From the NCBI GenBank assembly GCA_024643455.1, contig JAHEMV010000004.1, forward strand, positions 1 to 37,064: a DNA stretch of 37,064 nt. The letters are read 5' to 3'. Positions 578 through 29,811 of the stretch are shown one piece after another. The DNA comes from Cytophagales bacterium. GTDB lineage: Bacteria; Bacteroidota; Bacteroidia; Cytophagales; Cyclobacteriaceae. The notes beneath the pieces are model-generated. The model did not search any database, was not told the DNA's origin, and worked only from the letters and a program-made list of their open reading frames with translations. Position numbers and translations under genes: made by a program. Position 1 is the stretch's first letter. Every line of letters starts with the position of its first letter.

Positions 578-990
578 ATTGGTTGAGTCACTTCTTTTTT
601 TATACCTATATCGGCCTGGTTTTGGTTGCTGGATTTTGGGGTGCTTTTATCAATCCTTATTTCGATTTTGATTTGTTGTTTAGCTTCGACCCACATACAC
701 TTACGGATCATGTACGGATCAATTTATTAAGTCAGTATCGATTCCTGAGAGCGCTGGAGCTAGGTTTTGGCCTATTTTCCATCCTTTTTGTGAACAAGAT
801 ATTTAATGAAAAAACATTCAATATTCTTTTCCTGATCATTATGGGATCGGGAATTATAGCTCGGGTGATATCCTGGATGGTAGATGGAACGCCAAATACG
901 CTTTCCCAACTATTTATGTTCTACGAACTAACCGGCTGGATTTTCATTTTCATTCATACACATAAAACCCGATATCACCGTGCTTATTGA
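574..990 (+). CDS. Hypothetical integral membrane protein, DUF4345-like (138 aa)
   Basis: ATGA overlap with the upstream ORF; four hydrophobic segments; '..LSQYRFLRALELGFGLF..'. Confidence 0.6.
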   Translation: MNWLSHFFFYTYIGLVLVAGFWGAFINPYFDFDLLFSFDPHTLTDHVRINLLSQYRFLRALELGFGLFSILFVNKIFNEKTFNILFLIIMGSGIIARVISWMVDGTPNTLSQLFMFYELTGWIFIFIHTHKTRYHRAY

Positions 991-11908: not shown

Positions 11909-13156
11909 ATGAAGTTAACAACTGGAATATTATCAATACTCGTCGGAATAATTGTATTCCAATCCAAGGCACAAGAAACACAATGGCGTGGACCTGAACG
12001 ATCTGGCATTTTCCCGGAGACCGGATTACTTCAAGAGTGGCCTGAAAGTGGCCCGGAACTGATCCTGAAAGTTGACAATCTCGGCAAAGGCTATTCCACG
12101 CCAGTGCTGGATAATGCCGTAATTTATATTACTGGCAAGGAAGGTGAAGAAGATTTTCTATATGCTGTAGAAATGAGCGGTAAAATCAAATATAAAGTGA
12201 AGTATGGCAGATCCTGGGAAAACAGCTATCCGGATACAAGATCCACACCTACTATTGATGAAGATCACCTTTATGTAATTAGTGGTATGGGTGAAGTAGT
12301 TTGCATCAATAAAATTGAAGGCACTATTTTATGGAATATAAATGCATACGAAAAATATAAAGGTGAACTTCACAGATGGGGTGTAGCAGAATCTCCACTA
12401 GTAATTGATGACAAAGTCATTTATACAAATGGCGGGAGTGAAACCTCCTTTATCGCCTTTAATAAATTAACAGGTGAGGAAGTTTGGAAAACTGAAAGTG
12501 TTGGTGGAGCCAGAACGTATGTATCTCCGGTTATTTATAAAAATGGCGATGTCCGTCAGATTTTGGGTTCAACATCGGATTATGTGGTGGGAATTAATCC
12601 TGAAAATGGAAATATCGATTGGAAGTATTATTATCTCCTGCAAGAAAGTGAAGGAGTAAAACAAGTTACGATTAGTCCTAACTCAGCCATCATCAAAGGA
12701 AACGAGATATTTATTTCTAAAGGATACAATTCCTATGGTGTGATGTTAATCGTTGCTGAAGACGGGAAAAATGTAAAAGAAAAATGGAGAACAGAAGTAC
12801 TGGATACACATCATGGACATTATGTGAATGTCGGTGATTACATCTATGGATCAAACTGGCTCAATAATAGCCAGGGAAACTGGGTGTGTCTGAGATGGGA
12901 TAAAGGCGAAGTGATGTACGAGGAAGAATGGAAAACCAAGGGTCCAATCGCTTTTGCAGACAGCAAGCTTTATTGTTGGGAGGAACGCACTGGCAATTTT
13001 GCATTGGTCAATCCTACTCCTGAAAAATTTGATATCGTAAGCTCATTCAGGATTCAGGATGGTTCTGGACCCTATTGGGCGCATCCTTACATAAAAGAAG
13101 GGAAGCTACTTCTTCGTCATGGCGAAGTGTTATTGGTTTATAATATTAAAGCTTGA
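11909..13156 (+). CDS. Secreted PQQ-like (BamB-fold) beta-propeller protein
   Basis: Signal peptide ending 'FQSKAQETQWRGPERSGIFPETGLLQEWPE'; repeated 'G.I.W....' blades such as 'IEGTILWNINAYEKYKGE' and 'LTGEEVWKTES'. Confidence 0.85.
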   Translation: MKLTTGILSILVGIIVFQSKAQETQWRGPERSGIFPETGLLQEWPESGPELILKVDNLGKGYSTPVLDNAVIYITGKEGEEDFLYAVEMSGKIKYKVKYGRSWENSYPDTRSTPTIDEDHLYVISGMGEVVCINKIEGTILWNINAYEKYKGELHRWGVAESPLVIDDKVIYTNGGSETSFIAFNKLTGEEVWKTESVGGARTYVSPVIYKNGDVRQILGSTSDYVVGINPENGNIDWKYYYLLQESEGVKQVTISPNSAIIKGNEIFISKGYNSYGVMLIVAEDGKNVKEKWRTEVLDTHHGHYVNVGDYIYGSNWLNNSQGNWVCLRWDKGEVMYEEEWKTKGPIAFADSKLYCWEERTGNFALVNPTPEKFDIVSSFRIQDGSGPYWAHPYIKEGKLLLRHGEVLLVYNIKA

Positions 13157-14579
13157 CAGGCATTTGAAAATCTCGAATCACATATTGCTCGGAACAACTG
13201 CATTAATCTTTGTTATTGCTTTATCATGGTGGAGTTTTAGCAAACCCCGTGTAAAAGTATCCATGAGTGAGCCTGGCATGGATAATCGTGAAGCTTCTGC
13301 AGGAGCCAACGAACTAATCAATATTGGAGAGTTTTTCGAACGTTTTTTCAGTACAAAAACAACACTTTCAGAAACATGGCCCAGATTCCGGGGAGAGGAT
13401 TTTGACAATATCAAAAAACCAGGCAAAGCCCTCACGGATAAGTTTAATAATGACGCAAAAATTCAATGGTCTATGGAATTGGGGGAAGGTCATGCCGGAC
13501 CTGCAGTGTATAAGGGGCTGGTATATGTACTGGATTACGATGAGGAACAAAAAGCAGATATACTTAGGTGTTTTTCATTAAAAGATGGCAAAGAAGTATG
13601 GAGAAGGTGGTACAATGTAAATATAAAGCGGAACCACGGCATGTCCAGAACTATTCCTGCGGTGACCGAAAAATACATTTTGACTATCGGCCCGCGATCT
13701 CATGTAATGTGTATGGATAGAGAGACAGGTGAATTACTTTGGGGACTTAATGTGGAAAAAGAATACGGCACTGATGTTCCCTTTTGGTATACTGGTCAAT
13801 GCCCGATGATTGATAATGGTAAGGCAATCATTGCTACTGGAGGTAAAGCAATTTTAATAGCAGTGGACTGCGCTACCGGAGAAGTTGTATGGGAAACTCC
13901 CAACCCCAATGGCCTTAAAATGTCACACTCTTCCATCATGCCCTGGACACTAAATGGAACCAGAATGTATGTTTATAGCGCAGTTGGAGGAGTCGTCGGA
14001 ATAAGTGCTGAAGGACCTGATGAAGGCAAAATACTTTGGGAATCGTTGAAGTGGGGATGTTCGGTAGTAGCCCCCTCACCTGTATGTTTACCGGATGGCA
14101 AATTATTCCTTACAGCTGGTTATGGTGCAGGAAGCATGGTATTTCAGGTTACCGGTTCAGGCGGAAATTTTTCCATAGAAAAATTATATGAATATAAACC
14201 CAATGATGGACTGGCATGCGAACAACAAACGCCTGTAGTTTATGATGGATTGGTGTACGGAATCCAACCCAAAGATGGAGGAACGCTAAGAAATCAGTTT
14301 ATCTGTGTAGATCCGTCTGATTTCAAAAAAGTGATTTGGTCCAGTGGAAAAACGAACAGATTTGGCCTGGGACCTTATATGATCGCTGACAATAAATTTT
14401 TCATTCTGAATGACGAAGGAACACTTTCGATCGTGAGACCAAGCAAGACAGAATTTGTTTTGCTCGATCAACTAAAAGTTTTCGATGGACGTGATGCCTG
14501 GGCACCTTTAGCCATAGCCGATGGTTATCTCTTGTTAAGAGATGATCACAAGATGATATGTATGGATATAAACAAATAA
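13119..14579 (+). CDS. Membrane-anchored PQQ-like beta-propeller protein (true start may be internal)
   Basis: N-terminal TM 'HILLGTTALIFVIALSWWSF'; 'WPRFRGEDFDNIKKPGKALTDKFN' plus repeated 'DGKEVWRRWY', 'TGELLWGLN', 'TGEVVWETPN' blades. Confidence 0.85.
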   Translation: MAKCYWFIILKLDRHLKISNHILLGTTALIFVIALSWWSFSKPRVKVSMSEPGMDNREASAGANELINIGEFFERFFSTKTTLSETWPRFRGEDFDNIKKPGKALTDKFNNDAKIQWSMELGEGHAGPAVYKGLVYVLDYDEEQKADILRCFSLKDGKEVWRRWYNVNIKRNHGMSRTIPAVTEKYILTIGPRSHVMCMDRETGELLWGLNVEKEYGTDVPFWYTGQCPMIDNGKAIIATGGKAILIAVDCATGEVVWETPNPNGLKMSHSSIMPWTLNGTRMYVYSAVGGVVGISAEGPDEGKILWESLKWGCSVVAPSPVCLPDGKLFLTAGYGAGSMVFQVTGSGGNFSIEKLYEYKPNDGLACEQQTPVVYDGLVYGIQPKDGGTLRNQFICVDPSDFKKVIWSSGKTNRFGLGPYMIADNKFFILNDEGTLSIVRPSKTEFVLLDQLKVFDGRDAWAPLAIADGYLLLRDDHKMICMDINK

Positions 14580-14582
14580 TAT

Positions 14583-15554
14583 ATGAATAAGAACCTTATA
14601 TATTTGATTCTGATAGTTTGTGGACTGGCAATCGCATATATAATGGTTGGTGGATTATTTAAAAACGAACTTAAAAAAACCACGAAAAATCCATATGAGT
14701 ATGATCTTGGGGATATAAATAAAATTGACCCCGAGATGATCAAATACAAAGAAACCAAGCGAATCGGTCTTTCTTTCGCAGAGCCAAAAGTGGTAGATTA
14801 TTCAAGCGGTTATCTGGCTATTGGATTTGAAAATCAGTTGCAGATGATTGACACATCGGGAAGGGAAATTTTTAATAAAGCTGTATCGGGTCCCATTACA
14901 AGTCTGAAATTATCAAAGGATAACCTGATTTATCTTGGGTGTAAAAACCATATCGAAAAATACAATACCAATGGAGATCTCATCGAAACCTGGCAGGAAA
15001 TAGATCCTTCCACTTACATCACTTCCATAGCGCTGAAAGATGATTATGTATTTGTGGCTAATGCCAGTGGGGCGGTTGTTCTTCAGTACAGCCTCACCGG
15101 AGAGATCTTGCATTCTTTTGATGGTAAAAACAGAACGGATAGCAAGCATGGCTTTATTATACCGAGCCCCTACTTTGATCTGGATGTTGATTCGGGGGGT
15201 GAACTTTGGGCAGCCAATACAGGTGTTCAAGCTATTGAAAACTACAACCTCGATGGTTCACTAAGAGCATTCTGGGGAGCCTCATCCTATGATTTGAAAG
15301 GATTCATAGGATGTTGTAACCCAGCTCATTTCAGCATACTTGAAAATGACTCTTTCGTAACCTGTGAAAAAGGGCTGGTAAGAATCAAGATCTATCTACC
15401 TTCCGGTGAATTGGAAAGTGTGGTTGCTACTCCAGATGATTTTTCCGCGAATTCAATCCCTCCGGATCTTACTTCTGATGAAATGAATAATATTTATATA
15501 CTGGATATATCCAGAAAAATGATTAGAAAATTTGAGCGAAAGGAAACCTCATGA
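14583..15554 (+). CDS. Membrane-anchored NHL-like beta-propeller with GCCNP motif
   Basis: N-terminal TM; blade repeats 'SLKLSKDNLIYLGCKNHIEKYNTNGDLI', 'YFDLDVDSGGELWAANTGVQAIENYNLDGSL'; 'GFIGCCNPAHFSILENDSFVTCEKGLVRIKIYLPSGE'. Confidence 0.75.
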   Translation: MNKNLIYLILIVCGLAIAYIMVGGLFKNELKKTTKNPYEYDLGDINKIDPEMIKYKETKRIGLSFAEPKVVDYSSGYLAIGFENQLQMIDTSGREIFNKAVSGPITSLKLSKDNLIYLGCKNHIEKYNTNGDLIETWQEIDPSTYITSIALKDDYVFVANASGAVVLQYSLTGEILHSFDGKNRTDSKHGFIIPSPYFDLDVDSGGELWAANTGVQAIENYNLDGSLRAFWGASSYDLKGFIGCCNPAHFSILENDSFVTCEKGLVRIKIYLPSGELESVVATPDDFSANSIPPDLTSDEMNNIYILDISRKMIRKFERKETS

Positions 15555-15748
15555 AAAGACGAAATTTTATATCTGAATTTGGCAGATGGGTATTGCTTGG
15601 AGGCTTGATGAGTACATCGGGATTTCTGCTTTATCGCCGCCGGTTTGGAGATCCTCAAAACTGCTATAAAAATCCGCTATGTAAAAGTTGCAACCAGTTT
15701 AGCAACTGCGACATTGTTGCCAATATAAAAACATCTGGAAATGAATGA
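15551..15748 (+). CDS. Small membrane protein with four-Cys motif (65 aa)
   Basis: ATGA overlap with the upstream gene, overlaps the downstream gene; one TM; 'CYKNPLCKSCNQFSNC' at the C-terminal end. Confidence 0.65.
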   Translation: MKRRNFISEFGRWVLLGGLMSTSGFLLYRRRFGDPQNCYKNPLCKSCNQFSNCDIVANIKTSGNE

Positions 15749-16322
15749 CAGAAAGGAAAACAAGGCAAAAAGCAGAAGGGACTTCCTGCAAAGTACCGCA
15801 CGTTATACACTTGCTATAAGCATAGGAGGAATCGGTGGTCTTGTTGCCAGTAAATCCAAAACAGGAGATTACCTCTGGCAGATCGATCCTTTTGTTTGTA
15901 CACAATGTGGACGATGCGCAGATGAATGTGTCCTAACGCCATCTGCTGTGAAGTGCTTCCATGCATTCGACCTTTGCGGATATTGCGACCTCTGTGGTGG
16001 CTATTTTAAACCTGGAGTAATGGATCTGAATACAGGCGGAGAAAACCAGCTTTGCCCTACCGCTGCTATTAAAAGGAATTTTGTGGAAGATCCATTTTTT
16101 GAATACACTATTGACGAGGATCTGTGCATTGGATGTGGAAAGTGTGTTAAAGGATGTTCTTCCTTTGGGAATGGCTCGCTCCATCTGCAGATCAATCAAG
16201 ACTTATGTGTGAATTGTAACCAATGCGCCATTGCAAGAATGTGCCCTTCTGATGCTATCACCAGGGTGCCAGCAAGTAATCCATATAAAGTAAAAGGAGA
16301 TTTTATCAAATCAAATACTTAG
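15741..16322 (+). CDS. Putative Tat-exported multi-[4Fe-4S] ferredoxin-like protein
   Basis: 'SRRDFLQSTARYTLAISIGGIGG' Tat-like signal; 'CTQCGRCADEC', 'CGYCDLC', 'CIGCGKCVKGC', 'CVNCNQCAIARMC'. Confidence 0.87.
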   Translation: MNDRKENKAKSRRDFLQSTARYTLAISIGGIGGLVASKSKTGDYLWQIDPFVCTQCGRCADECVLTPSAVKCFHAFDLCGYCDLCGGYFKPGVMDLNTGGENQLCPTAAIKRNFVEDPFFEYTIDEDLCIGCGKCVKGCSSFGNGSLHLQINQDLCVNCNQCAIARMCPSDAITRVPASNPYKVKGDFIKSNT

Positions 16323-16325
16323 ACA

Positions 16326-17615
16326 TTGAATAGGCAATTTTTTAAAATAGTATCCATTTTTTCCGGACTTCTCATCTCGGTAATCACCTTTGCCCAGCAA
16401 CGGTTTCCACGGCCGGACTTTGAAAGTGACTACAAATCACCATCAATCCTGGTCCCGGAACCAAGACATGGCTGGATGGAATACATGGATGTTTTTATAC
16501 TTTTCATTGTGCTTTCACTCGCCACCTGGTTTGTACTAAAAAAGCGCTCCAGAAAAGGTGTGCTTTACTTGTCCTTGTTTACGTTGATCTATTTCGGTTT
16601 TTATAGAAATGGATGTATTTGTTCTATCGGAGCTATTCAGAATGTTACTCTGGCATTGGTCGATCCGATGTATGCGATCTCACTGACTGCATTGGCATTT
16701 TTTATGTTACCATTGCTTTTTGCCCTTTTTGCTGGAAGAGTCTTCTGTGGAGGAGCTTGTCCGTTGGGTGCTATCCAGGACCTGATCATCATTAAACCGA
16801 TCGAATTGCCCATCGGGATTCGAAAAGCACTAGGCGTTATCCCCTATCTATACCTGGGTCTTTCTATATTATTTGCCGCTACAAAGACCGACTTTATTAT
16901 CTGTAGATATGATCCATTTGTCGGGATATTTCGTATGGATGCTAGTTTTAATATGCTGGTTCTTGGCGGAAGTTTTTTGATCATTGGTATGTTTGTAGGC
17001 AGACCTTATTGTCGATTCCTTTGCCCATACGGTGTTTTATTGAACTGGACTTCAAGCGTTTCCAAAAAACACCTGACTATCACACCTTCGGAGTGCATTG
17101 ATTGCAAATTGTGCGAGCGATCATGCCCGATGGATGCAATCAACAAACCAGTGACCGAACCCGTATCCAGAAAAAAGGATATCAATCGATTTGTATTGTC
17201 CGTCATCATTATTCCAATTCTAATGCTAGCTGGTGGATACATTGTTTCCAAATCGCACGTGTACCTGTCGAAAGTGAACCGTACCGTAAGTTTAGCAGAA
17301 TTGTTAATCACCCATCCAGAATTAAAAGCTGATCCAGACCATATTGATATTCAGACGTTCCTGGCCTCTGGGAAAACCATGGATAGCCTCGTGCAGGAAG
17401 CAACGGTAATCAGAGAACAATTTCGCATTGGCGGCTGGATTTTGGGTGCCTTTTTTGGCCTCTCATTCGGGATTATGTTCAGCAAAAAAACCATTTACCG
17501 TAACCGTACTGATTATGAACCTGACAAAGGCAACTGCGTAAGTTGCGGACGCTGCATGGATTTTTGCCCTGTTGGTAAAGAAGATTTTGAGACATTAATG
17601 AAATTAAAAAGTTGA
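16326..17615 (+). CDS. NapH/NosR-like polytopic 4Fe-4S membrane protein (TTG start)
   Basis: 'GCICSIGAIQNV', 'VFCGGACPLGAIQD', 'PYCRFLCPYGVLL' membrane Cys motifs plus 'CIDCKLCERSCPMDAI' and 'CVSCGRCMDFCPVG' clusters; multiple TMs. Confidence 0.85.
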   Translation: MNRQFFKIVSIFSGLLISVITFAQQRFPRPDFESDYKSPSILVPEPRHGWMEYMDVFILFIVLSLATWFVLKKRSRKGVLYLSLFTLIYFGFYRNGCICSIGAIQNVTLALVDPMYAISLTALAFFMLPLLFALFAGRVFCGGACPLGAIQDLIIIKPIELPIGIRKALGVIPYLYLGLSILFAATKTDFIICRYDPFVGIFRMDASFNMLVLGGSFLIIGMFVGRPYCRFLCPYGVLLNWTSSVSKKHLTITPSECIDCKLCERSCPMDAINKPVTEPVSRKKDINRFVLSVIIIPILMLAGGYIVSKSHVYLSKVNRTVSLAELLITHPELKADPDHIDIQTFLASGKTMDSLVQEATVIREQFRIGGWILGAFFGLSFGIMFSKKTIYRNRTDYEPDKGNCVSCGRCMDFCPVGKEDFETLMKLKS

Positions 17616-19483
17616 GAGATAGAGAAAAACAAATATTTGCCCTAAGGACGGCCTACATTTCAGGGATCTTTTCAATGATCGTTTGCCTGGTGATACTGCT
17701 GAATTATAGGCAATTGATCACCACCGATCCATTAGAAAGTAAGCTATTAAAAACAATGGTGGAACGACTTCAGGAAGACACCTCAAATGAGGAACTGAAA
17801 GAAGAAATCCGTCAGTTGGATTTAATGACCCGTAATGCCTATTTCACTGATCAATGGCAAATTCGATCTGGAGCTTTTTTGTTCATCGGTGGAATTGTAA
17901 TCATGGTTATTGCACTCAGGATCTACTATTCCTTAAAAGCTAAAATCGTACAACCCCAATCTAATATTGCTTCTCTGGATCTCGAACTGTTGATTTCCAG
18001 AAAATGGATTTTATACACAGTTGCTATCATATTCGGCCTTGCATTACTTGCTTCATATCTTTCAATCGATCATTTATCAAAGACGTATGCACTGACTGAA
18101 GTTCAGGAAAAGAATGCTGAAATCCCAGTTCAACAAATAATCCCAAAGGATGCACTTGAAAATCCAGCTGTCAATGGAGATGACGAATCACAAAATGTTG
18201 AATTGGAAGTAGAAAATGAAGCGACACAAAAGGATGTCACTGCACAAGTAAATACTCCAGAGGATGGTGAAGATATTATAGCGGAATCAGCAGAAAAACC
18301 AATAGCATCCTCCCCTAAAGCAATTACAGCAAACGATCTTAAAAATAATTTCCCGTCATTCCGTGGCCCTTTCGGTTTGGGAATAGCCTATCAAAGCAAT
18401 ATTCCCACAACATGGGATGGCACTTCAGGTGAAAATATAAAATGGAAAGTAAAAATTCCTTTACCTGGTTTTAATTCTCCGGTTATTTGGGATAAAAAGG
18501 TATTCGTTACGGGTGCTGACAGAACAAATGAATCAATCTATTGCTATGACCTGGAAAATGGAAAACTCGTTTGGGAATATAAAGTCACTGGCATTGAACG
18601 CCCTTCAGGAAAACCGATTAAACCAACGGAAGATACCGGATTTGCTGCGCCAACAGTTACCACTGATGGCGAATTTGTCTTTGCCATATTCGCTACCGGT
18701 GATCTGGTTTGTGTTGACATACAAGGAAACAGAAAATGGTCAAAAAATGTAGGAATTCCGGATAACCATTACGGACACTCCTCATCGTTGCTTTTATGGA
18801 AAAATAAAGTTTTTATCCAGTTTGACACTAATGAGGCTGGCAAAATTCTTGCACTTGATGCTACTACAGGAAACCAGGTTTGGGAAACAACCCGGACATC
18901 TAAAATCTCATGGGCGTCACCAATCCTTGCAAACGTGGCAAATCAATATGAATTGATATTATCTTCCAGTCCAGAGGTAGCTGCATACAATCCTGAATCC
19001 GGCAAAGAGTTGTGGAAACTCAATTGTTTGAGTGGTGAGGTCGGACCATCTCCGGGATTTAACGATGGCATTGTATTCGCCGCAAATGAATATGCGAAAC
19101 TTATTGCGATTAAACCCGGGAATCCTCCGGAAGTGCTCTGGGAATCAAATGAATACCTGCCTGAGGTTGCCAGTCCTGTTGCTATAAATGGATTACTATT
19201 TATTGCAACCAGCTATGGCGTGGCGGCCTGCTTTGATGCTTCCAAAGGTGAATTGTTATGGGAATACGAAGCGGATCAGGGCTTCTATGCGTCTCCGGTT
19301 ATTGCAGATGGGAAAGTATTCTTCATGGATATGGATGGGAAAATGCATATTTTTTCTATCGACCGCGTTAAGAAGGTAGTTGGAACTCCTGAATTGGGAG
19401 AAAAAGTAGTGAGCACTCCTGCTTTTGCTCAGGGTAAAATAATGTTGAGGGGATATGATCATTTATATTGTATTGGAAAATAG
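17612..19483 (+). CDS. Membrane-anchored PQQ-like beta-propeller with acidic linker (TTG start)
   Basis: Three TM segments; Glu/Asp-rich linker; 'FPSFRGPFGLGIAYQSNIPTTWDG..NIKWKVKIPLPGFNSPVIW' followed by W-containing blades. Confidence 0.87.
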   Translation: MRDREKQIFALRTAYISGIFSMIVCLVILLNYRQLITTDPLESKLLKTMVERLQEDTSNEELKEEIRQLDLMTRNAYFTDQWQIRSGAFLFIGGIVIMVIALRIYYSLKAKIVQPQSNIASLDLELLISRKWILYTVAIIFGLALLASYLSIDHLSKTYALTEVQEKNAEIPVQQIIPKDALENPAVNGDDESQNVELEVENEATQKDVTAQVNTPEDGEDIIAESAEKPIASSPKAITANDLKNNFPSFRGPFGLGIAYQSNIPTTWDGTSGENIKWKVKIPLPGFNSPVIWDKKVFVTGADRTNESIYCYDLENGKLVWEYKVTGIERPSGKPIKPTEDTGFAAPTVTTDGEFVFAIFATGDLVCVDIQGNRKWSKNVGIPDNHYGHSSSLLLWKNKVFIQFDTNEAGKILALDATTGNQVWETTRTSKISWASPILANVANQYELILSSSPEVAAYNPESGKELWKLNCLSGEVGPSPGFNDGIVFAANEYAKLIAIKPGNPPEVLWESNEYLPEVASPVAINGLLFIATSYGVAACFDASKGELLWEYEADQGFYASPVIADGKVFFMDMDGKMHIFSIDRVKKVVGTPELGEKVVSTPAFAQGKIMLRGYDHLYCIGK

Positions 19484-21832
19484 ATGGAGGGAGATAGATA
19501 TACAGCAATTGATGCAATTCTGAAAGAGAAGGAAGGAGTCCAAAAGGATGTAATCCCCATTTTACAGGCTATTCAAAACCAGTATCATTACTTACCGGAA
19601 GACATTCTAAAAAGAGTTTGCAATCAGACTCAAATCACCCCGGCCATGTTGATGGGCGTATCCAGTTTCTATTCTCAATTTAGACTAAAACCAACTGGTG
19701 AACATATCATTAAAGTATGTACCGGTACAGCGTGCCATGTAAAAAGAGCTGAGTTGGTTTATGATACTTTTGGGCGAGCATTACACCTGGAACCGAATCA
19801 AGACACCGATCCAAAGGGCAATTATACACTTGAAAAGGTCAATTGCCTTGGTTGCTGTACACTTGCACCTGTCGTTCAAATTGACGAAATCACCTATGGA
19901 CATGTGGAAGTAGAAAGTGTTAAGCGCGTACTAACCTCTTTTGAAAATTTAAATGGCCAGCCCAAAACCAAAGAAAATGCCAATAACATAAATGGGAATA
20001 AAAATGATGGCGAGATAAGGATTGGCTTAGGCTCATGCTGCATTGCCAGCGGTAGCGAGGAAGTAAAAAATTCTGTTGAGCTAGCCGTAAAAGAAAATGC
20101 GCTGGATGTACAAATGAAAAGGGTTGGCTGCGTAGGAATGTGTCACCAGGTACCTTTACTGGAAATTATCCCAAAAGGAAAAGAGCCAACACTCTATTCC
20201 AAAGTCCAGCCAGGTGATGTGAACAAAATCATCAATCAACATTTCAAACCTCAGGGGATTTGGCACAGATTAAAATCCTCCATTTTCAATATGGTAGAAG
20301 ATATCCAGACGGACAGAAACTGGGAAGGTATTGAGCAATTCGAACTAAATTACCGTGAAAAGCAGGTCTCTTCCTTTCTGGGAACGCAGGTTCCTATTGC
20401 TACGGAACACCGAGGTGCTATCGATCCCTTAGATATTGATGAATACAAACAAGGATTTGGATTTTTTGCTCTGAAAAAATGTTTAAATGAATTGAGTCCA
20501 GATCAGGTTATTGACAAAATTGAAGAAAGTGGCTTACGTGGCCGAGGGGGTGCAGGATTCCCAACCGGTGCAAAATGGCAAACGTTTAAAATTCAGCAAA
20601 GTGAAATAAAATATATTATTTGCAATGGGGATGAAGGAGACCCTGGTGCATTTATGGACAGGATGCTGTTGGAATCTTATCCATACCGGATCATTGAGGG
20701 TATGATCATTGCGGCTCATGCAACCGGAGCCTCCAAAGGTTATTTTTATATCCGGGCTGAATACCCTCTGGCAGTAAAACGGATTAGTGAAGCTTTAAAA
20801 ATCTGCAAAGAGCATGGCTATCTAGGAAAAAATATCCTTGATTCGGGTTTAGCTTTTGATATCGAAATCTTCCAGGGAGCAGGAGCATTTATTTGCGGTG
20901 AAGAAACTGCACTCATTGCATCTATCGAAGGCAACAGGGGATTTCCAAAATTGCGCCCTCCCTACCCGGTGCAGCAAGGCTTATGGGAATGCCCTACCCT
21001 TGTTAACAATACCGAGACGTTTGCCACTATACCATTTATCTTAAGAAATGATGTTGCAAACTATACCAAATACGGAACCGAAAACAGCAAAGGGACTAAA
21101 GTTTTTGCCCTGGCAGGAAAGATTAATCGGGGTGGATTAATCGAGGTTCCCATGGGAATCACAATTCGGGAAATTATAGAAGATATTGGTGGTGGTGTCG
21201 CTGAAGGAAGAAAGTTTAAAGCAGTACAGATAGGTGGACCTTCCGGTGGGTGTATCCCGGAATCTTTGATAAATACTCCGATTGATTTTAATTCATTGAA
21301 AGAAGTTGGTGCTATGATGGGCTCTGGAGGTCTGGTTGTGCTTGATGATACCGACTGTATGGTAGATATCGCGCGCTATTTTCTTTCTTTCACACAAAGT
21401 GAATCTTGTGGCAAATGCACATTCTGCCGGGTTGGCACGATGCGAATGCTGGATATTCTTAACAATATTACGGCAGGGAAAGGAACATCAAAGGATCTGG
21501 ATGAACTTGAAAAACTGGCTAAATGGACAAAAAAAGGCAGTCTTTGTGGTTTAGGTCAGACTGCTCCAAATCCTGTACTATCAACTTTAACGTATTTCAG
21601 ACATGAATATGAGGCGCACATCAACGGCACATGTCCAACTGGAAAATGTCAGAATTTAATTAAATATTCCATCGATGATACGTGTATTGGCTGTACAAAA
21701 TGTGCACAGAATTGTCCGGTAGATGCGATAGCTTTTACCCCCTACGAAATACATGTGATCGATCAGGATAAATGCATCAAATGTGATGGATGCAGGCAGG
21801 TATGTCCAGAGGATTCGGTTCACGTAAGATAA
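19484..21832 (+). CDS. NuoE-NuoF fusion with an extra thioredoxin-like [2Fe-2S] domain and C-terminal 2x[4Fe-4S] (HydBC/NuoEF-like)
   Basis: NuoE: 'VSSFYSQFRLKPTGEHIIKVCTGTACHVK...VNCLGCCTLAPVV'; second thioredoxin-like: 'GLGSCCIASG...RVGCVGMC'; NuoF: 'GLRGRGGAGFPTGAKW', 'CNGDEGDPGAFMDR', 'GAGAFICGEETALIASIEG', 'SCGKCTFCRVGT'; ferredoxin: 'CIGCTKCAQNCPVDAI', 'CIKCDGCRQVCPEDSV'. Confidence 0.94.
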   Translation: MEGDRYTAIDAILKEKEGVQKDVIPILQAIQNQYHYLPEDILKRVCNQTQITPAMLMGVSSFYSQFRLKPTGEHIIKVCTGTACHVKRAELVYDTFGRALHLEPNQDTDPKGNYTLEKVNCLGCCTLAPVVQIDEITYGHVEVESVKRVLTSFENLNGQPKTKENANNINGNKNDGEIRIGLGSCCIASGSEEVKNSVELAVKENALDVQMKRVGCVGMCHQVPLLEIIPKGKEPTLYSKVQPGDVNKIINQHFKPQGIWHRLKSSIFNMVEDIQTDRNWEGIEQFELNYREKQVSSFLGTQVPIATEHRGAIDPLDIDEYKQGFGFFALKKCLNELSPDQVIDKIEESGLRGRGGAGFPTGAKWQTFKIQQSEIKYIICNGDEGDPGAFMDRMLLESYPYRIIEGMIIAAHATGASKGYFYIRAEYPLAVKRISEALKICKEHGYLGKNILDSGLAFDIEIFQGAGAFICGEETALIASIEGNRGFPKLRPPYPVQQGLWECPTLVNNTETFATIPFILRNDVANYTKYGTENSKGTKVFALAGKINRGGLIEVPMGITIREIIEDIGGGVAEGRKFKAVQIGGPSGGCIPESLINTPIDFNSLKEVGAMMGSGGLVVLDDTDCMVDIARYFLSFTQSESCGKCTFCRVGTMRMLDILNNITAGKGTSKDLDELEKLAKWTKKGSLCGLGQTAPNPVLSTLTYFRHEYEAHINGTCPTGKCQNLIKYSIDDTCIGCTKCAQNCPVDAIAFTPYEIHVIDQDKCIKCDGCRQVCPEDSVHVR

Positions 21833-21833
21833 A

Positions 21834-23399
21834 ATGGGAATGATCAAACTAAAAGTCAACGGTAAAGAAATAGAAGCAGATAATGGATTAACTGTTCTGG
21901 AAACGCTGAAAAAAGAAGGGATCAACGTTCCCACTATGTGTTTCCTGGATAATGAAGAGCATTTCCCAACCTGTATGATTTGCATCGTTAAGGATCAAAA
22001 AACGGGGAGGCTTATTCCTTCATGCAGTACACATATTTCCACAGGTATGGATATCATTTCCAATGATGAAGAAATAATAGAAGCCCGGAAAACTGCTTTG
22101 GAACTTTTGCTCAGTGATCACATTGGAGAATGTGACGCCCCATGCCAGACCAATTGCCCTGCATTTATGGATATCCCGCTGATGAATCGACTCCTTGCCA
22201 ATGGACAATTTGACGAAGCATTGAGGGTAGTGAAAAAAGACATCGCACTTCCAGCGGTGTTGGGGAGAATTTGTCCTGCGCCCTGTGAACGCGCATGCCG
22301 AAGAAGAAACATTGATGAGCCAGTTTCAATTTGTACATTAAAACGTTATGCGGCAGATCACGATCTTGAACATGCCTCGAGTTTTATTCCTGATATAGCA
22401 AGATTAAATGGCAAAAAAATAGGCATTATCGGTTCCGGCCCGGCTGGATTATCAGCAGCATATTTCCTCCTTCAGAAAGGCTATCAATGCACATTACATG
22501 ATAAAAATCCATTACCCGGAGGAGCGTTGCGCTATGCCATCCCTGATGATCGGCTTCCTAAAGAAGTTCTGGACCAGGAGATCGATATTATAAAGCAGAT
22601 GGGGGCAAAGTTTTTAATGAATTTTGAATTGCCTGTCGATGGTCTGGAAAATCTTCGAAAGGAATATGATGGTGTAATTGTAGCTACTGGTGAAGAAAAT
22701 GCTGATTTTGACGAATTGGTCAAAAAGAATAAATCTTTTGTCACAGAAAAGAACACCTACCAAACAAATGTGGATGGAGTGTTTGCAATCGGCAGCGCCA
22801 TCAAACCAGGTAGAGTAGCCATTCGAGCTGTCGCTCATGGAAAAGAAGCTGCTTTTGCCATGGATCAGTTCCTCAATGGAAATCCAGTGACTGGCGAAGC
22901 TCAACTATTCAATTCCAGGATTGGCAGAATGTTAGAAGAAGAATATGATGACTTTATGCTTGAGGCTGATCCTGGGCCAAGGATTGAAACAACAGAATTT
23001 GAAGGATTCACAATGGAGCAGGTCCAAAAAGAAGCTGCCAGATGTATGCATTGCGATTGCAGGAAAAAATTTGACTGCAAACTTAGGGATTACTCCGGTG
23101 AATATGACGCTTCACAAAAGCGTTTTTTCCCAAGAGAAAGACCACCAATTCGAAAAATATTCAAGCATGAACCATTGGTTTATGAACCAGAAAAGTGTAT
23201 AAAGTGTAGTATATGTGTTAGGATCACAGCACGACACAAAGAGGAACTGGGGTTGACTTATATCGGGAAGGGTTTTGATGTTGAAATAAGTGCTCCTTTC
23301 AACGATTATCAAAAAAACGCCCTGGAGAATACGGCTATTTTATGTGCAGAAAAATGTCCAACAAGTGCATTGGCAATTAAAAAGCATGATGAAGTTTGA
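21834..23399 (+). CDS. NuoG-like [2Fe-2S] / GltD-like FAD / [4Fe-4S] protein, apparently without the NAD(P)H-binding subdomain
   Basis: 2Fe-2S: 'TMCFLDNEEHFPTCMICIV..IPSC'; GltD N-terminal 'CDAPCQTNCPAFMDIP', 'GRICPAPCERACRR'; FAD 'KIGIIGSGPAGLSAAYFL'; C-terminal 'CIKCSICVRI...CAEKCPTSAL'. Confidence 0.88.
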   Translation: MGMIKLKVNGKEIEADNGLTVLETLKKEGINVPTMCFLDNEEHFPTCMICIVKDQKTGRLIPSCSTHISTGMDIISNDEEIIEARKTALELLLSDHIGECDAPCQTNCPAFMDIPLMNRLLANGQFDEALRVVKKDIALPAVLGRICPAPCERACRRRNIDEPVSICTLKRYAADHDLEHASSFIPDIARLNGKKIGIIGSGPAGLSAAYFLLQKGYQCTLHDKNPLPGGALRYAIPDDRLPKEVLDQEIDIIKQMGAKFLMNFELPVDGLENLRKEYDGVIVATGEENADFDELVKKNKSFVTEKNTYQTNVDGVFAIGSAIKPGRVAIRAVAHGKEAAFAMDQFLNGNPVTGEAQLFNSRIGRMLEEEYDDFMLEADPGPRIETTEFEGFTMEQVQKEAARCMHCDCRKKFDCKLRDYSGEYDASQKRFFPRERPPIRKIFKHEPLVYEPEKCIKCSICVRITARHKEELGLTYIGKGFDVEISAPFNDYQKNALENTAILCAEKCPTSALAIKKHDEV

Positions 23400-23445
23400 A
23401 CAGATATCACGTTTTAGCTCCATTTGGAAAAATTTAAAAGTGAAA

Positions 23446-24549
23446 ATGAAAAAGTATCTGATCGTATTGTTTATCCTAATTCCAATTTTAGCTTTTACCC
23501 AAACAAGCACAGAATGGAACATCTTCCGGGGAGATCCTGCGCTAAGTGGTTATAGCAATGCAAAAATCAAATTCCCCATAGATCTCAAATGGACCTATCA
23601 AACAGATGATGACATCGTAGCCGCTGCTGTGATTGGCGATGAAACAATTTTCGTAAGCTCAATTGGAGGCTTTGTGTATGCACTGGATTTTAATGGAAAA
23701 TTGAAGTGGAAATTTGAAGCAGATAATTCCATTGAAGCTCCGGCACTTTACCTTAAAGGCAGATTATACGTGGGCGATTTTAGTGGATATTTATATGCAT
23801 TAGATGCCAAAACGGGGAAACAAGTTTGGGTATACGAAACAGAAAACCAGATTATGGGATCTCCGAATTATGCGTACGTGAAAAACAGGCTATATATTCT
23901 CGTTGGCAGCTATGATTATTTTCTTCATTGCGTAGATGCTGAAACAGGAAAGAGTGTGTGGAAATACGAATCTGATAATTTCATCAATGGCGCTCCGGCG
24001 ATAGGCAACAACCTGGCTATGTTTGGTGGTTGTGACGGATTTTTGCACATGGTAAATCTTGAAACCGGAAAAGCTAAAGATAAACTGGAAGTAGCAACCT
24101 ATATCGCTGGTTCAGTGACTATTTCAGAAAATCTGGTTTTTACAGGTGACTATGATGGACTTTTTTCCTGCATAGACCTGGATAAAAAGGAAATAAAGTG
24201 GCAATTTGACAATCCATCCAGTAATTTACCAATATTGGCTTCGCCGGCACTGAATAGCGATAAAGTCGTAATTGGAGGACAGGATAAATATCTGAGATGC
24301 TTTGATGATGATGGAAAGCAAATCTGGTCATTCAACGCCGGAGGCAGATTGGATGCCTCACCTGTTATTGTGAGAAATGTTGTAATTGCAGCGACCATGG
24401 ATGGATTGCTTTATGCTTTAAATCTCAATAATGGAAAAGAATTGTGGTCCTATGAAATTGGAAGTGCCATGGCGCATAATCCGGCAGTAATTGATAACCG
24501 GATGGTTGTTGGAGCAAGAGATGGAAACGTTTATTTTTTTGAAAAATAA
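23446..24549 (+). CDS. Secreted PQQ-like (BamB-fold) beta-propeller protein (start moved from 23290 to the ATG at 23446)
   Basis: Signal peptide 'MKKYLIVLFILIPILAFTQTSTEW' begins at 23446 in frame; very regular blades 'GFVYALDFNGKLKWKFEADNSIEAPAL', 'GYLYALDAKTGKQVWVYETENQIMGSP'. Confidence 0.9.
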   Translation: MKKYLIVLFILIPILAFTQTSTEWNIFRGDPALSGYSNAKIKFPIDLKWTYQTDDDIVAAAVIGDETIFVSSIGGFVYALDFNGKLKWKFEADNSIEAPALYLKGRLYVGDFSGYLYALDAKTGKQVWVYETENQIMGSPNYAYVKNRLYILVGSYDYFLHCVDAETGKSVWKYESDNFINGAPAIGNNLAMFGGCDGFLHMVNLETGKAKDKLEVATYIAGSVTISENLVFTGDYDGLFSCIDLDKKEIKWQFDNPSSNLPILASPALNSDKVVIGGQDKYLRCFDDDGKQIWSFNAGGRLDASPVIVRNVVIAATMDGLLYALNLNNGKELWSYEIGSAMAHNPAVIDNRMVVGARDGNVYFFEK

Positions 24550-24570: not shown

Positions 24571-25857
24571 ATGCAAATAGTTCATATCGTACCGGGTTCA
24601 GGAGGTAGTTTTTACTGTGGCAATTGCCTTCGTGACAGTGAATACATCCAGGGATTGAAACGAGCAGGTGTTGAAGTGATGAAGGTTCCGATGTACTTAC
24701 CCATTTTCGCCGACAAACATGATATTGAAGAAGTTCCGGTGTTTTACGGCGCTATTAGTCTTTATCTGAAACACAGCTTCCCTGCACTTCGAAAGGCTCC
24801 CGGCTGGATGGAAAAAATACTGAATTCTGGCCCGGCACTTAGGTTTGCTGCCGGCATGGCCGGTTCAACCAATCCAAAAGGTCTGGAAAGTATGACCATC
24901 TCCATGCTTCTCGGAGAGACCGGAGAACAGAAAAAGGAGTTGGAACATTTGATAGACTGGCTCGAGAAGCACTGCCATGCAGATGTTATTCATTTGTCCA
25001 ACGCGCTCCTGATTGGATTAGCAAGACGGATCAAAGAGCGACTGGATGTCAAGGTGGTTTGTACTCTTCAGGACGAGGACGTCTGGGTGAATGCTATGGA
25101 TGAGCATTTTAAAATACAGACCTGGGATCTGATGAAAGAACGCGCACGTGATGTCGATGCTTTTTTTGCCGTTAGCAACTATTTTGCAAAAGAGATGCAA
25201 CCTGTCTTAAATATCCCAGATGAAAAACTTTTTATCCACCACATCACGATTGATCCTGCAGAATATACTTATCAAAATACTTCTGAAAAACCATTGAACA
25301 TCGGGTATATTTCCAGGATGTGTGAAGACAACGGACTGGAAGTATTAGTAGATGCTTTTATTATTCTGAAAAAAGACTCTAAATGGTGCGATGTTAAGCT
25401 GATTGTCACAGGAGGATCAACCGGGGAAAATGACAAATTTGTAAAATCCATAAAGAAAAAAATTAAAGAAGCAGGACTCGATAGCGAAGTGGAATTTCAT
25501 AAGGATTTTGAAGATGGCCGGCATGAATTCTTCAAAAAGGTATCGATGACCTCCGTTCCAGTGCTGCACGGTGAAGCATTTGGATTATATCTTCTTGAAT
25601 CTATGGCTTCTGGTGTACCCGTAGTGCAACCTGCCTTGGGTGCTTTCCCTGAAATTGTAAAAAAATCTGGCGGAGGGACTATTTATGAACCTAATAGTCC
25701 GGAAATGTTAGCAAAAGCTTTATTAGGATTATTGGAAAATCAAGAAAAACTAAATCAATTGAGTGAAGAAGGTAGAAAAGGAGTTGAACAAAAGTTCAAT
25801 ATTCACCAGGAAGCAAAAGATGTGGTAGCACGGTATTCGAAACTTTTAAATAAATAA
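24571..25857 (+). CDS. GT4-type glycosyltransferase with N-terminal CGNC motif
   Basis: 'IVHIVPGSGGSFYCGNCLRDSEYIQGLKRAGVEVMKVPMYLP'; GT-B C-terminal 'GYISRMCEDNGLEVLVDAF', 'GEAFGLYLLESMASGVPVVQPALGAFPEIV'. Confidence 0.9.
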   Translation: MQIVHIVPGSGGSFYCGNCLRDSEYIQGLKRAGVEVMKVPMYLPIFADKHDIEEVPVFYGAISLYLKHSFPALRKAPGWMEKILNSGPALRFAAGMAGSTNPKGLESMTISMLLGETGEQKKELEHLIDWLEKHCHADVIHLSNALLIGLARRIKERLDVKVVCTLQDEDVWVNAMDEHFKIQTWDLMKERARDVDAFFAVSNYFAKEMQPVLNIPDEKLFIHHITIDPAEYTYQNTSEKPLNIGYISRMCEDNGLEVLVDAFIILKKDSKWCDVKLIVTGGSTGENDKFVKSIKKKIKEAGLDSEVEFHKDFEDGRHEFFKKVSMTSVPVLHGEAFGLYLLESMASGVPVVQPALGAFPEIVKKSGGGTIYEPNSPEMLAKALLGLLENQEKLNQLSEEGRKGVEQKFNIHQEAKDVVARYSKLLNK

Positions 25858-25865
25858 AGATAAAA

Positions 25866-26543
25866 ATGTTGCTTAAAGTCCAGCACATCACAAAAACATA
25901 TCTATCGGAAAATAGCACGCCTGTCTTGCTCAACCTTGACATGGAATTGGATTCCGGTCAAACTATGGCCATCCTGGGTCCTTCAGGATCGGGTAAATCT
26001 ACGCTATTGAATATCATTGGGACATTGGATAAGCCAGATTCAGGAGCGCTATTCTTTAATGATAAAAACATCCTGGATCTTTCTGATAAAGACCTGGCTA
26101 GCTTCAGAAACAGGGAAATAGGATTTGTGTTTCAATCGCATCATCTCCTGCCGCAATGTACTGTCATGGAAAATGTGATGATTCCAACACTCGCTGTCAA
26201 AGATGAAGCATTCAAAAAACAATGCAAAACAAGAGCTATGGAGCTGATCCATGAAGTGGGTCTCTGGGATCACAAGGATAAATTTCCAGGAACTTTATCT
26301 GGTGGCGAATGCCAGCGGGTTGCAGTTGTTCGGGCTTTGATCAATAAACCCAGGATCCTTTTGGCTGATGAACCCACGGGTTCACTCGATAGAGAAAATG
26401 CCCATGCAATTACTGCATTACTGCTCAAATTGAATGGTGAATTCAACACATCCCTCATCGTTGTGACACATTCAGAAGAAATAGGAAAGCAAATGGCAAA
26501 CGCCTTTAAATTATTGGATGGGCAATTAAAGCCATGGAAATAA
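25866..26543 (+). CDS. ABC transporter ATP-binding protein, LolD/MacB family
   Basis: Walker A 'GPSGSGKST'; signature 'LSGGECQRVAVVRAL'; Walker B 'ILLADEPTGSLD'. Confidence 0.95.
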   Translation: MLLKVQHITKTYLSENSTPVLLNLDMELDSGQTMAILGPSGSGKSTLLNIIGTLDKPDSGALFFNDKNILDLSDKDLASFRNREIGFVFQSHHLLPQCTVMENVMIPTLAVKDEAFKKQCKTRAMELIHEVGLWDHKDKFPGTLSGGECQRVAVVRALINKPRILLADEPTGSLDRENAHAITALLLKLNGEFNTSLIVVTHSEEIGKQMANAFKLLDGQLKPWK

Positions 26544-26550
26544 ACAATAG

Positions 26551-29500
26551 ATGAATTTACTCCACCTCATATACAGGTCCCTGTTTTATTATTGGAAATC
26601 ACATCTGACAGTCGTCATCGGTGTGGCAATTTGCACAATGGTCATCACTGGCACATTGATCGTGGGAGATTCTATCCGATCCAGTCTCGAATTGACGACT
26701 CAACTTCGACTGGGGAAAACAGAATATTTATTTTCCGGAATAGACAGGTATTTTCGATCAACACTGGCAGAGGAAGTAAAAAAAGAACTTCAAATCGATG
26801 TAGCACCCATACTTCAATTAAATGGATTTGCCTCTTCACAGGGAGGTCAATTAAAGCTAAATAATGTTCAGGTTATTGGTATTGATAATCAATTTCAATC
26901 TTTTCTTCCAGACGATATCAAACTTGGATCGCCAGCAAATGGAGAAGCTTATATAAGTGAAAATCTTGCACAACGTTTACAACTCAAAGAAGGCGATGCA
27001 CTGCTATTGCGTGTGGAGAAAGCAAGTCAAATTCCAAAAAATGCCCCATTTGTTACAGATCAGGAAAACCAGGTTTCCATTCGGTTAACAGTTAAAAAAA
27101 TATTAAGTCCTATAGAGCTTGGAAGGTTCAATTTGAAAACCTCGCAAACTGCACCATTCAATGTATTTCTATCCTTGACATTTCTGAATGAAGAAATGGA
27201 TCTATCTGAAAAAGCCAATAAAATCCTATTTCATTCAACTCTTGACAATGAACAAAATATCCGTGAAGCGATAAGAAAGCATTTTACTTTAGAAGATAGG
27301 GCATTGAACGTCATTTCTGTTATGGATAGTTCATTATTTGAGATCACTTCTGAACGTATATTTCTAGATTCTGCCATTACTAAAAAGGTTAATGAAATCG
27401 TTCCTCAGGCCAAAGAAATATTGACTTATATGATCAATTCATTTGAGGTTCACGGTAAAGAAACACCCTATTCTTTTCTATCTGCAGGACCTTTTTTGAA
27501 TCCTGATTCAGGATTAAACTATGAAGTTATTATCAATTCATGGATGGCTGCAGATTTAAATGCCTCTATTGGCGACAGCATGAAAATATCGTATTTCATC
27601 ATTGGACCTCTGCGGCAACTGCTCGAAGAAAGTCATTGGTTTATCATCACGGATATAGTGAAGATGGAGGGCATCTACAATGACAGAACCCTCATGCCGG
27701 ATCTTCCCGGCATGTCTGATGCAGGAAATTGTCGCGACTGGGAAGCTGGAGTACCCATAGAGTTGGACAGGATTCGCGACAAGGATGAGGATTACTGGAA
27801 TAACTATCGCGGTACACCAAAGGCATTCATCAACTATGAAACTGGGAAAAAATTATGGCAAAATCGATATGGCGTTTCTACAGCAATTCGGATACCTTCT
27901 TCAACCATCGACAAAGAAACTCTGGAGAATAATCTCTCACAGGCAATTTCACCTGAGTCGCTGGGATTCACGCTTCATCCAGTCAAAAAGGAAGGACTTA
28001 CTGCAGCAAGCGGAGGGGTCGATTTCGGCCAGCTTTTTATGGGGTTGAGTTTCTTTTTGCTGGTTGCCGGATTGATCCTGATGGCTTTACTTTTTAACCT
28101 GCATCTGGAAAAACGGATGGGTGAGATCGGTACATTAAAAGCACTTGGATACTCCTACTCATCCATCAGGAAGATCATTTTATCAGAAGGGTTGTTCATT
28201 GCAATTCCGGGCGTAATTATTGGTGGAATATTTGCCATACTGTATAATAAAATCATTTTTTACGCACTCAATACTGTCTGGTATGCCATTGTCCTGACCG
28301 ATATCTTGCAGGAAGTTATTCTGGTCAAAACGTTGCTTTTAGGAATGGCGATCTCACTTCTCCTTATTTCAGTTTCCATCTGGTATAATGTAAATAGACG
28401 CCTAAAAGAAACCTCCTCTAGCTTACAACGCAACTTGAAAGAATCTAAAAAAAACAACAGGCTTGGTTGGCTCAAAGTTGGAGCATGGTCGACAGCTTTC
28501 ATTGCCATTGCAATGCTTGGGTATGAAGCAATATTCGGACAAATATTAAATACCGGCATTTTTTTTACCGGAGGAGGATTGTTGTTAGTATCGTTTATCC
28601 TACTTTTTTCAATCCTGATCAAAAAGGAAGGTATGATGTCGAATGAAGAACTTACCCAAGTTTCGCTGATTAGAAAAAATTTATCTCGAAATCCAGCAAG
28701 GAGTTTCAGGATTGTTATCCTTTTCGCACTTGGCACCTTTATCATAATTTCCACCGGTCTCAATAAGAAGGATCTGCACCAGGGCGCAAATGAACCGACT
28801 AGTGGAACAGGAGGTTTTCAATTTTATATGGAAACCACAATGCCAGTTTTAAAAGACCTCAATAATCCACAAAACCAACTGGATCAAGGTATTGAAAATC
28901 CTTTGGAATTTATTCAATTAAGAAAAAGTGAAGGAGATGATGCCAGCTGTCTGAATCTAAACAGGGTTGTCTCCCCAAGGATATTGGGAATTCCTCCGGA
29001 GCAACTTTCCGGAAGATTCACATTTATAAAATCCACAGAAGATCTTGATCCCGAAAATCCATGGATATCCATTCAAAAAGAGTTGGCGGGAGGTGTGATT
29101 CCTGCTGTTTTGGATCAAACAGTGATCCAATGGGGGTTGGGCAAAAAAGTAGGTGATACGCTTATTTACCGTGATGAAGCTGGAGATGAAATGAAGCTCA
29201 AAATTATTGGAGGACTGGCCAATTCGATTTTCCAGGGAAATGTGTTGATCGATAATCAATTGTTTCTAAAGCACTTCCCATCCAACAGTGGTTCTAATGT
29301 TTTTCTCATTAATGGTGCTACCGAGGAGCTGGATCAAAGCAGGGATGAACTCGCACGTTCATTTAGAAATGAAGGTGCCGAAATTGAAATCGCAGCAGAT
29401 CGCCTTGCTATGTTTAACCAGGTGGAAAATACTTATTTATCCATCTTTCTTTTACTGGGTGGATTAGCAATGATCCTTGGGACTGTTGGATTGGGAGTTT

Positions 29501-29811
29501 CGCTTGCAAGAAATATCCAGGATCGTGGAAGGGAGATAGGGATATTACGTGCTGTCGGATATCAAAAATCTAAAATTCTACAGATTATCGCTTACGAACA
29601 TTTGGCATTGCTGTTGGTTGGAACCTTGATAGGAGCCATCACTGCATTTGTCGCTACGCTACCCTCAATTTTATCAGAATTTGTCCAGGCTTCCTGGCAG
29701 ACTGCCGCGATGATTGTGGTGCTGATCCTGCTAAATGGCCTGCTCTGGATTTATGGAATTTCAAGGAATTATTTAAGAAAAGATTTGTTACTCACCTTGA
29801 GGGAAGAGTGA
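26551..29811 (+). CDS. ABC transporter permease with two FtsX-like domains (1086 aa)
   Basis: N-terminal TM plus large extracytoplasmic domain; 'EKRMGEIGTLKALGYSYSSIRKIILSEGL' and 'DRGREIGILRAVGYQKSKILQIIAYEHL' FtsX motifs. Confidence 0.92.
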   Translation: MNLLHLIYRSLFYYWKSHLTVVIGVAICTMVITGTLIVGDSIRSSLELTTQLRLGKTEYLFSGIDRYFRSTLAEEVKKELQIDVAPILQLNGFASSQGGQLKLNNVQVIGIDNQFQSFLPDDIKLGSPANGEAYISENLAQRLQLKEGDALLLRVEKASQIPKNAPFVTDQENQVSIRLTVKKILSPIELGRFNLKTSQTAPFNVFLSLTFLNEEMDLSEKANKILFHSTLDNEQNIREAIRKHFTLEDRALNVISVMDSSLFEITSERIFLDSAITKKVNEIVPQAKEILTYMINSFEVHGKETPYSFLSAGPFLNPDSGLNYEVIINSWMAADLNASIGDSMKISYFIIGPLRQLLEESHWFIITDIVKMEGIYNDRTLMPDLPGMSDAGNCRDWEAGVPIELDRIRDKDEDYWNNYRGTPKAFINYETGKKLWQNRYGVSTAIRIPSSTIDKETLENNLSQAISPESLGFTLHPVKKEGLTAASGGVDFGQLFMGLSFFLLVAGLILMALLFNLHLEKRMGEIGTLKALGYSYSSIRKIILSEGLFIAIPGVIIGGIFAILYNKIIFYALNTVWYAIVLTDILQEVILVKTLLLGMAISLLLISVSIWYNVNRRLKETSSSLQRNLKESKKNNRLGWLKVGAWSTAFIAIAMLGYEAIFGQILNTGIFFTGGGLLLVSFILLFSILIKKEGMMSNEELTQVSLIRKNLSRNPARSFRIVILFALGTFIIISTGLNKKDLHQGANEPTSGTGGFQFYMETTMPVLKDLNNPQNQLDQGIENPLEFIQLRKSEGDDASCLNLNRVVSPRILGIPPEQLSGRFTFIKSTEDLDPENPWISIQKELAGGVIPAVLDQTVIQWGLGKKVGDTLIYRDEAGDEMKLKIIGGLANSIFQGNVLIDNQLFLKHFPSNSGSNVFLINGATEELDQSRDELARSFRNEGAEIEIAADRLAMFNQVENTYLSIFLLLGGLAMILGTVGLGVSLARNIQDRGREIGILRAVGYQKSKILQIIAYEHLALLLVGTLIGAITAFVATLPSILSEFVQASWQTAAMIVVLILLNGLLWIYGISRNYLRKDLLLTLREE

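Follow-up and report, generated by a model that had tools for sequence, protein, structure and literature searches.

The window analyzed here is a stretch of 37,064 nucleotides from a Cytophagales bacterium (contig JAHEMV010000004.1 of assembly GCA_024643455.1), and its central feature is a pair of adjacent genes encoding a 782-amino-acid protein (positions 19484 to 21832) and a 521-amino-acid iron-sulfur protein (positions 21834 to 23399). The second gene starts one base past the stop of the first, and its reading frame is open throughout, which agrees with the view taken in a first-pass annotation of the sequence that no frameshift is involved. The same annotation described a GltD-like flavoprotein with a NuoG-like 2Fe-2S N terminus and a C-terminal Fe-S segment, both of which are present, and proposed that the second nucleotide-binding subdomain of such proteins is missing here together with its GGGNTAxD-like motif. 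We found no GGGNTAxD motif in the 521-amino-acid protein.

The closest solved relatives of this protein are 9bov_A, 8oh5_C (StnC), and 9n5u_A, which are the NADPH-oxidizing subunits of Bfu/Stn transhydrogenases. When aligned by phmmer with 9bov_A and 8oh5_C, residues 2 to 287 of the query correspond to chain residues 2 to 287, and the match picks up again only at chain residues 415 to 420, skipping approximately 127 residues, to continue as a second block to about residue 672. The block that is absent is the second Rossmann subdomain, which binds NAD(P)H and comprises some 127 to 150 residues; in its place is a linker of 28 amino acids that runs from the ATG motif (G286) to GVFAIG (V316). The Pfam profile Pyr_redox_2 is matched at positions 2 to 56 of 291 only, compared with positions 2 to 291 of 291 in an intact Bacteroidota homolog (locus L129). 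An AlphaFold model of the protein (mean predicted local distance difference test score, 72.5; predicted template modeling [TM] score, 0.69) gave StnC (8oh5_C) as its best Foldseek match, with a TM score of 0.82 over the query (521 residues spread over 690 alignment columns). Parts of the C-terminal half were modeled with low confidence, and the model therefore backs the fold assignment and not the details. By Pfam, phmmer, and linker alignments, the NADPH-binding subdomain that marks BfuA in the Nfn-Bfu/Stn group is absent, and the fold match to StnC agrees, so that the domain gap that had been proposed is confirmed. No separate NAD(P)H domain was recognized among the cluster proteins scanned.

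Homologs were gathered by one genome scan and whole-genome searches, followed by reading of the loci. The truncated form occurs in 36 distinct Bacteroidota proteins (less than 95% identity), the window protein included, all of which are without the subdomain; they come from the window's own family (genomes G002, G003, and G010) and from many metagenome-assembled genomes (MAGs) of Bacteroidales and Marinilabiliales. The linker measures 28 to 31 amino acids across a 23-sequence alignment of the truncated family and 15 to 65 amino acids in 15 further truncated loci, versus 179 to 180 amino acids in 28 full-length relatives. A script check of 15 newer truncated loci found the GGGNTA-type motif absent in every one. 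The full-length relatives, which were sampled from Bacteroidota only, are of two kinds. One, the 663-amino-acid kind (mostly 657 to 821 amino acids; 28 sampled), carries the pattern GGG[ND]T[AS][VI]DAAR strictly in 26 of 28 proteins. The other is Stn-type, with 1,209 to 1,276 amino acids, and its genes adjoin NuoE and NuoF genes, so that the Bfu partnership is common to truncated and intact forms. In a maximum-likelihood tree built on the alignment columns present in the window protein, 32 truncated proteins fall on one side of a 100/100 branch, outside of which lie 8 intact Stn-type and 6 intact 663-amino-acid proteins. The simplest reading of these sequences is that the NADPH subdomain was lost once in a Bacteroidota lineage.

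Several full-length loci showed contexts of their own. Four loci from one Bacteroidota family carry stand-alone 2Fe-2S/GltD fusion genes (approximately 663 to 821 amino acids) with an upstream open reading frame (ORF) that resembles IspH by eye and, on these short loci, no adjacent NuoEF gene. Intact Stn-type operons (NuoE, NuoF, and a 1,250-amino-acid StnC-like protein) were read at six loci; genes for a response regulator and a histidine kinase border that of L129, and the other intact loci have unmatched ORFs of similar length at those positions.

The 782-amino-acid partner consists of NuoE (BfuC) joined to the N terminus of BfuB, and its best PDB matches all come from bifurcating complexes. 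Pfam searches returned PF01257 (NuoE, thioredoxin-like 2Fe-2S) at 3.5e-46, PF01512 at 4e-46, PF10589 at 9e-33, and PF14697 (4Fe-4S dicluster) at 1e-10, with PF10531 at 7e-5, just under the gathering score; these are the counterparts of the Complex1_51K, SLBB, NADH_4Fe-4S, and 4Fe-4S domains (IPR011538, IPR019554, IPR019575, and IPR017896) that define BfuB. Equivalents of all of the B2-cluster ligands of 7t2r_B (NiFe-HydB; C438, H525, C531, and C536) are present, including the histidine that occurs in BfuB and not in nonbifurcating homologs (PMC9304861). The equivalent of C476 is a threonine, as in about two-thirds of BfuB proteins (PMC9304861). The NuoF-like module has a full site for flavin mononucleotide (FMN) and NADH, in support of the earlier suggestion that NAD(H) is handled by this module, and the 521-amino-acid protein has the 2Fe-2S and 4Fe-4S domains of BfuA. 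Judged by published sequence criteria, then, the 782-amino-acid protein is a Bfu core and the pair fits the Bfu family; by the same measure, a test for the NADPH domain shows it to be absent, which excludes the enzyme from the Nfn-Bfu/Stn transhydrogenases. Apparent BfuB-BfuA gene fusions in two genomes (open frames of 1,308 to 1,322 amino acids) proved to be pairs of ORFs separated by a stop. The window genome also encodes POR-type enzymes, a possible source of ferredoxin.

The truncated proteins differ sharply in how they treat their two kinds of cofactor site. All 18 Fe-S cysteines (Cys36, 47, 50, 64, 100, 104, 108, 147, 151, 155, 404, 407, 409, 415, 455, 458, 461, and 508) and His96 never vary, whether the protein is truncated or full length. 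On the adenine side of the flavin, the GxGxxG motif, the acidic ribose residue D223, GG229-230, and the glycine of the ATG motif are kept in all truncated members aligned. The flavin-contacting RYGIPxxR motif, which is invariant in the 28 full-length proteins except for one Tyr-to-Phe change, is degenerate in truncated ones, and the aspartate of FAxGD, found in 28/28 full-length proteins, is S or N in 21/21 truncated proteins and S, N, or H in all 23 of the truncated alignment. Constraint on the Fe-S wire is thus strong, whereas the site of the flavin ring has been altered. No member retains the FAxGD aspartate and the flavin-side motif is eroded, so that flavin adenine dinucleotide (FAD), which may still be bound, could sit differently or be absent altogether. 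The first-pass annotation had offered FAD as either a bifurcation site or an internal electron relay. Bifurcation at this flavin was not supported: the arginine beside flavin N5 that characterizes the NfnL/GltD bifurcation site (StnC Arg239, NfnB R201) is found in only 7 of 23 truncated members, the FAD of StnC is nonbifurcating and sends electrons through Fe-S clusters to the BfuBC core (PMC10482914), and for Bfu enzymes the proposed site of bifurcation is the FMN of BfuBC together with neighboring Fe-S clusters (PMC9304861). The relay role is uncertain, given that the FAD of StnC is the terminal cofactor of its chain and that the flavin motifs are altered here.

The pair lies within a larger gene cluster (Table 1). 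In most loci, the order runs from one to three PQQ (pyrroloquinoline quinone)-like propellers through the propeller at 13119 to 14579, the 14583 protein, the 4Fe-4S protein with a twin-arginine translocation (Tat) signal, the polyferredoxin, and the membrane-anchored propeller to BfuCB, truncated BfuA, a further propeller, the glycosyltransferase, and the MacB/LolD-type ABC transporter. Some genomes have the cluster broken at the BfuCB boundary into two modules, both of which are still encoded, and at four loci unrelated genes (restriction, TonB-type receptor, RDD, and GDPD) split or interrupt the membrane and Bfu modules.

Table 1. Features of the window, with positions on the forward strand
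Feature	Position	Strand	Remark
PQQ-like beta-propeller protein	11909..13156	+	1-3 copies in related clusters
Beta-propeller protein	13119..14579	+	Conserved in cluster
Propeller-like protein	14583..15554	+	Conserved in cluster; GCCNP motif
Tat-signal (SRRDFLQ) multi-4Fe-4S protein, NapG-like	15741..16322	+	
NapH/NosR-like membrane polyferredoxin	16326..17615	+	Two membrane CX3CP motifs, two 4Fe-4S motifs
Membrane-anchored PQQ-like beta-propeller protein	17612..19483	+	
BfuC-BfuB fusion (NuoE + 2Fe-2S + NuoF + two 4Fe-4S)	19484..21832	+	Best PDB matches NfnB, StnB, HydB
BfuA-like subunit	21834..23399	+	NuoG-type 2Fe-2S, GltD-type 4Fe-4S and FAD domain without NAD(P)H subdomain, C-terminal 4Fe-4S region
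PQQ-like beta-propeller protein	23290..24549	+	Mechanical ORF start overlaps upstream gene
GT4 family glycosyltransferase	24571..25857	+	Conserved in cluster
LolD/MacB-type ABC transporter ATPase	25866..26543	+	Conserved in cluster
FtsX/MacB-type permease	26551..29811	+	Conserved in cluster

The polyferredoxin has its CX3CP motifs at residues 141 and 229 and its 4Fe-4S motifs at residues 257 to 267 and 404 to 414. The 13119 propeller, with a mean column identity of 64% over 17 sequences versus 58% for the BfuA-like protein, has many invariant His, Cys, Trp, and Arg residues and on that pattern looks like an enzyme or a cofactor binder rather than a scaffold; a fold search with it returned generic propellers only (BamB and tetrathionate hydrolase). 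The adjacent cysteines of the GCCNP motif in the 14583 protein are kept across clusters. The true start of the propeller gene that follows BfuA is probably near 23446, judging by eye from the methionine of MKKYLIVLF. Neither NapA nor an equivalent periplasmic reductase was found among the cluster proteins scanned, and a search for PqqC gave no match, with its controls likewise silent. A literature search turned up no description of this propeller gene cluster. Upstream of it, a patatin-like phospholipase, an unknown protein, and a GMC oxidoreductase stand in a row (positions 980 to 6493), and in G010 a SelA-like pyridoxal-phosphate enzyme (positions 19262 to 19900 of locus L104) adjoins the related cluster.

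The polyferredoxin and truncated BfuA co-occur almost strictly, even where they are unlinked. Among 59 relatives, the polyferredoxin is present in exactly the 4 that have the truncated protein, and among 396 genomes of the phylum, each was found in the window genome alone. Within one Bacteroidales family (43 genomes), all 26 with a search match to the truncated protein have the polyferredoxin, 6 more that were search negative for the truncated protein encode both side by side on loci that were read, 3 have the polyferredoxin with the truncated protein not found or not examined, and 8 have neither by search. As those six missed homologs were plainly present on the fetched loci, the search counts are lower bounds and search negatives are soft. 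In six of eight genomes with the truncated protein, picked mainly for nonadjacent genes or a short contig, the polyferredoxin is encoded elsewhere in the genome.

Known systems offer partial parallels. Like the Stn/Nfn-Bfu enzymes (StnABC of Sporomusa ovata and NfnABC of Thermococcus sibiricus and Caldicellulosiruptor saccharolyticus), the window system has BfuB and BfuC homologs with all signature ligands and a BfuA in which the regions follow in the same order. It differs from them in the lost NADPH-binding subdomain, the altered flavin-site motifs, the fusion of BfuC to BfuB, and the membrane polyferredoxin and propeller cluster as partners; the window BfuA also does not have the FdhF-like C-terminal domain of StnC. 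A Bfu core beside membrane protein genes is likewise seen in the Mbh-Bfu and Nuo-Bfu types (PMC9304861), but those use membrane subunits of group 4 NiFe-hydrogenase or complex I, whereas the partner here would be NapH/NosR-like. In the NapGH menaquinol dehydrogenase, NosR, and RdhC, as in the window, a membrane protein with two CX3CP and two 4Fe-4S motifs occurs with a Tat-signal 4Fe-4S protein (for NapH and the CX3CP motifs, see PMC5928378), and the window system putatively works like a NapGH-linked one. Unlike those systems, the cluster is tied to a Bfu module and several propeller proteins, and no terminal reductase or FMN-binding domain was recognizable among its proteins scanned. DvTRi and the clostridial ferredoxin-linked thioredoxin reductase are likewise FAD proteins of two domains that have given up the use of NAD(P)H (PMC5627308). 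However, DvTRi keeps a pseudo-NADPH domain and a GxFAAGD motif, while here the domain is wholly removed.

We somewhat favor the reading that an Nfn-type Bfu enzyme lost NADPH and gained the coinherited membrane module as its third redox partner. The 521-amino-acid protein would be the BfuA of a HydABC/Stn-type enzyme of the Bfu family whose ancestor was an Nfn-Bfu/Stn NADPH transhydrogenase; this BfuA would have shed the NADPH-binding subdomain and retained the whole Fe-S wire to the FMN of the fused BfuC-BfuB. In the predicted complex, BfuBC would handle NAD(H) and ferredoxin, by bifurcation or confurcation, and the membrane module would most likely replace NADPH. The ferredoxin domains of the polyferredoxin, placed on the cytoplasmic side by hydropathy and by analogy to NapH, may dock at the position vacated by the NADPH domain, exchanging electrons, in one direction or the other, with the quinone pool or with the Tat-exported Fe-S protein and the propellers; by analogy to NapGH, we lean toward electrons leaving the cytoplasm. 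A further-reaching version, which we hold only tentatively and at less than an even chance, is that the deletion created a new Bfu type by letting the flavin/Fe-S end dock a NapH-like protein, coupling NADH and ferredoxin to a periplasmic propeller redox process. Several points weigh against the membrane module as partner. The physical link to the polyferredoxin is drawn from genomics alone, the two modules lie on separate loci in several genomes, and the polyferredoxin was not found in two of the eight genomes described above, possibly because these MAGs are incomplete. With menaquinone (-74 mV) in that role, ferredoxin would be coupled only loosely in thermodynamic terms. In addition, the membrane-bound Bfu enzymes described by Schut et al. 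are of the Mbh and Nuo types only, with no NapGH-like partner (PMC9304861).

Among other explanations, an assembly deletion or a pseudogene has a negligible chance of being correct: the source assembly is fragmented (719 contigs), but the deletion recurs across many assemblies in 36 distinct members whose frames are open and whose Fe-S ligands do not vary, which rules out an assembly deletion. A vestigial flavin site deserves more attention, although we judge it unlikely. The GltD fold would then be a scaffold for 4Fe-4S clusters along which electrons move without FAD, as the lost FAxGD aspartate and degenerate RYGIPxxR beside invariant Fe-S ligands could suggest; the invariance of GxGxxG, D223, GG229-230, and the ATG glycine is unexpected if no dinucleotide is bound.

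Alternatively, FAD may be bound and the face freed by loss of the NADPH domain may react directly, in place of the polyferredoxin, with a carrier or substrate that is free to diffuse (menaquinone, flavodoxin, a thiol protein, or a small molecule). We consider this a little less probable again, since the near-strict co-occurrence points to the polyferredoxin and no thioredoxin or flavodoxin gene was recognized in the cluster. Least plausible of the functional alternatives is a plain NADH dehydrogenase that feeds the membrane module from NADH and leaves ferredoxin uncoupled. Bifurcation is indeed absent from the homologous NuoEFG-type modules of complex I, HoxEFU, and certain formate dehydrogenases (PMC9304861), but the B2 to B5 clusters and the B2 histidine, which are missing from nonbifurcating homologs (PMC9304861), are all present here, and the POR-type enzymes could supply ferredoxin.

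Beyond the domain loss that the first-pass annotation had noticed, the analysis adds the Bfu/Stn family identity and a co-traveling membrane module. An enzyme family has shed a substrate-binding domain while keeping its Fe-S wire and its gene partnership, which makes it a natural experiment in how modular bifurcating enzymes swap their third substrate. The near-constant company of a membrane electron carrier and a propeller set suggests that a known soluble enzyme has been rewired to trade electrons with the far side of the inner membrane. Should the membrane link hold, anaerobic Bacteroidota would gain a route that ties NADH and ferredoxin to chemistry beyond that membrane, and the conserved propeller gene cluster would gain a testable function.
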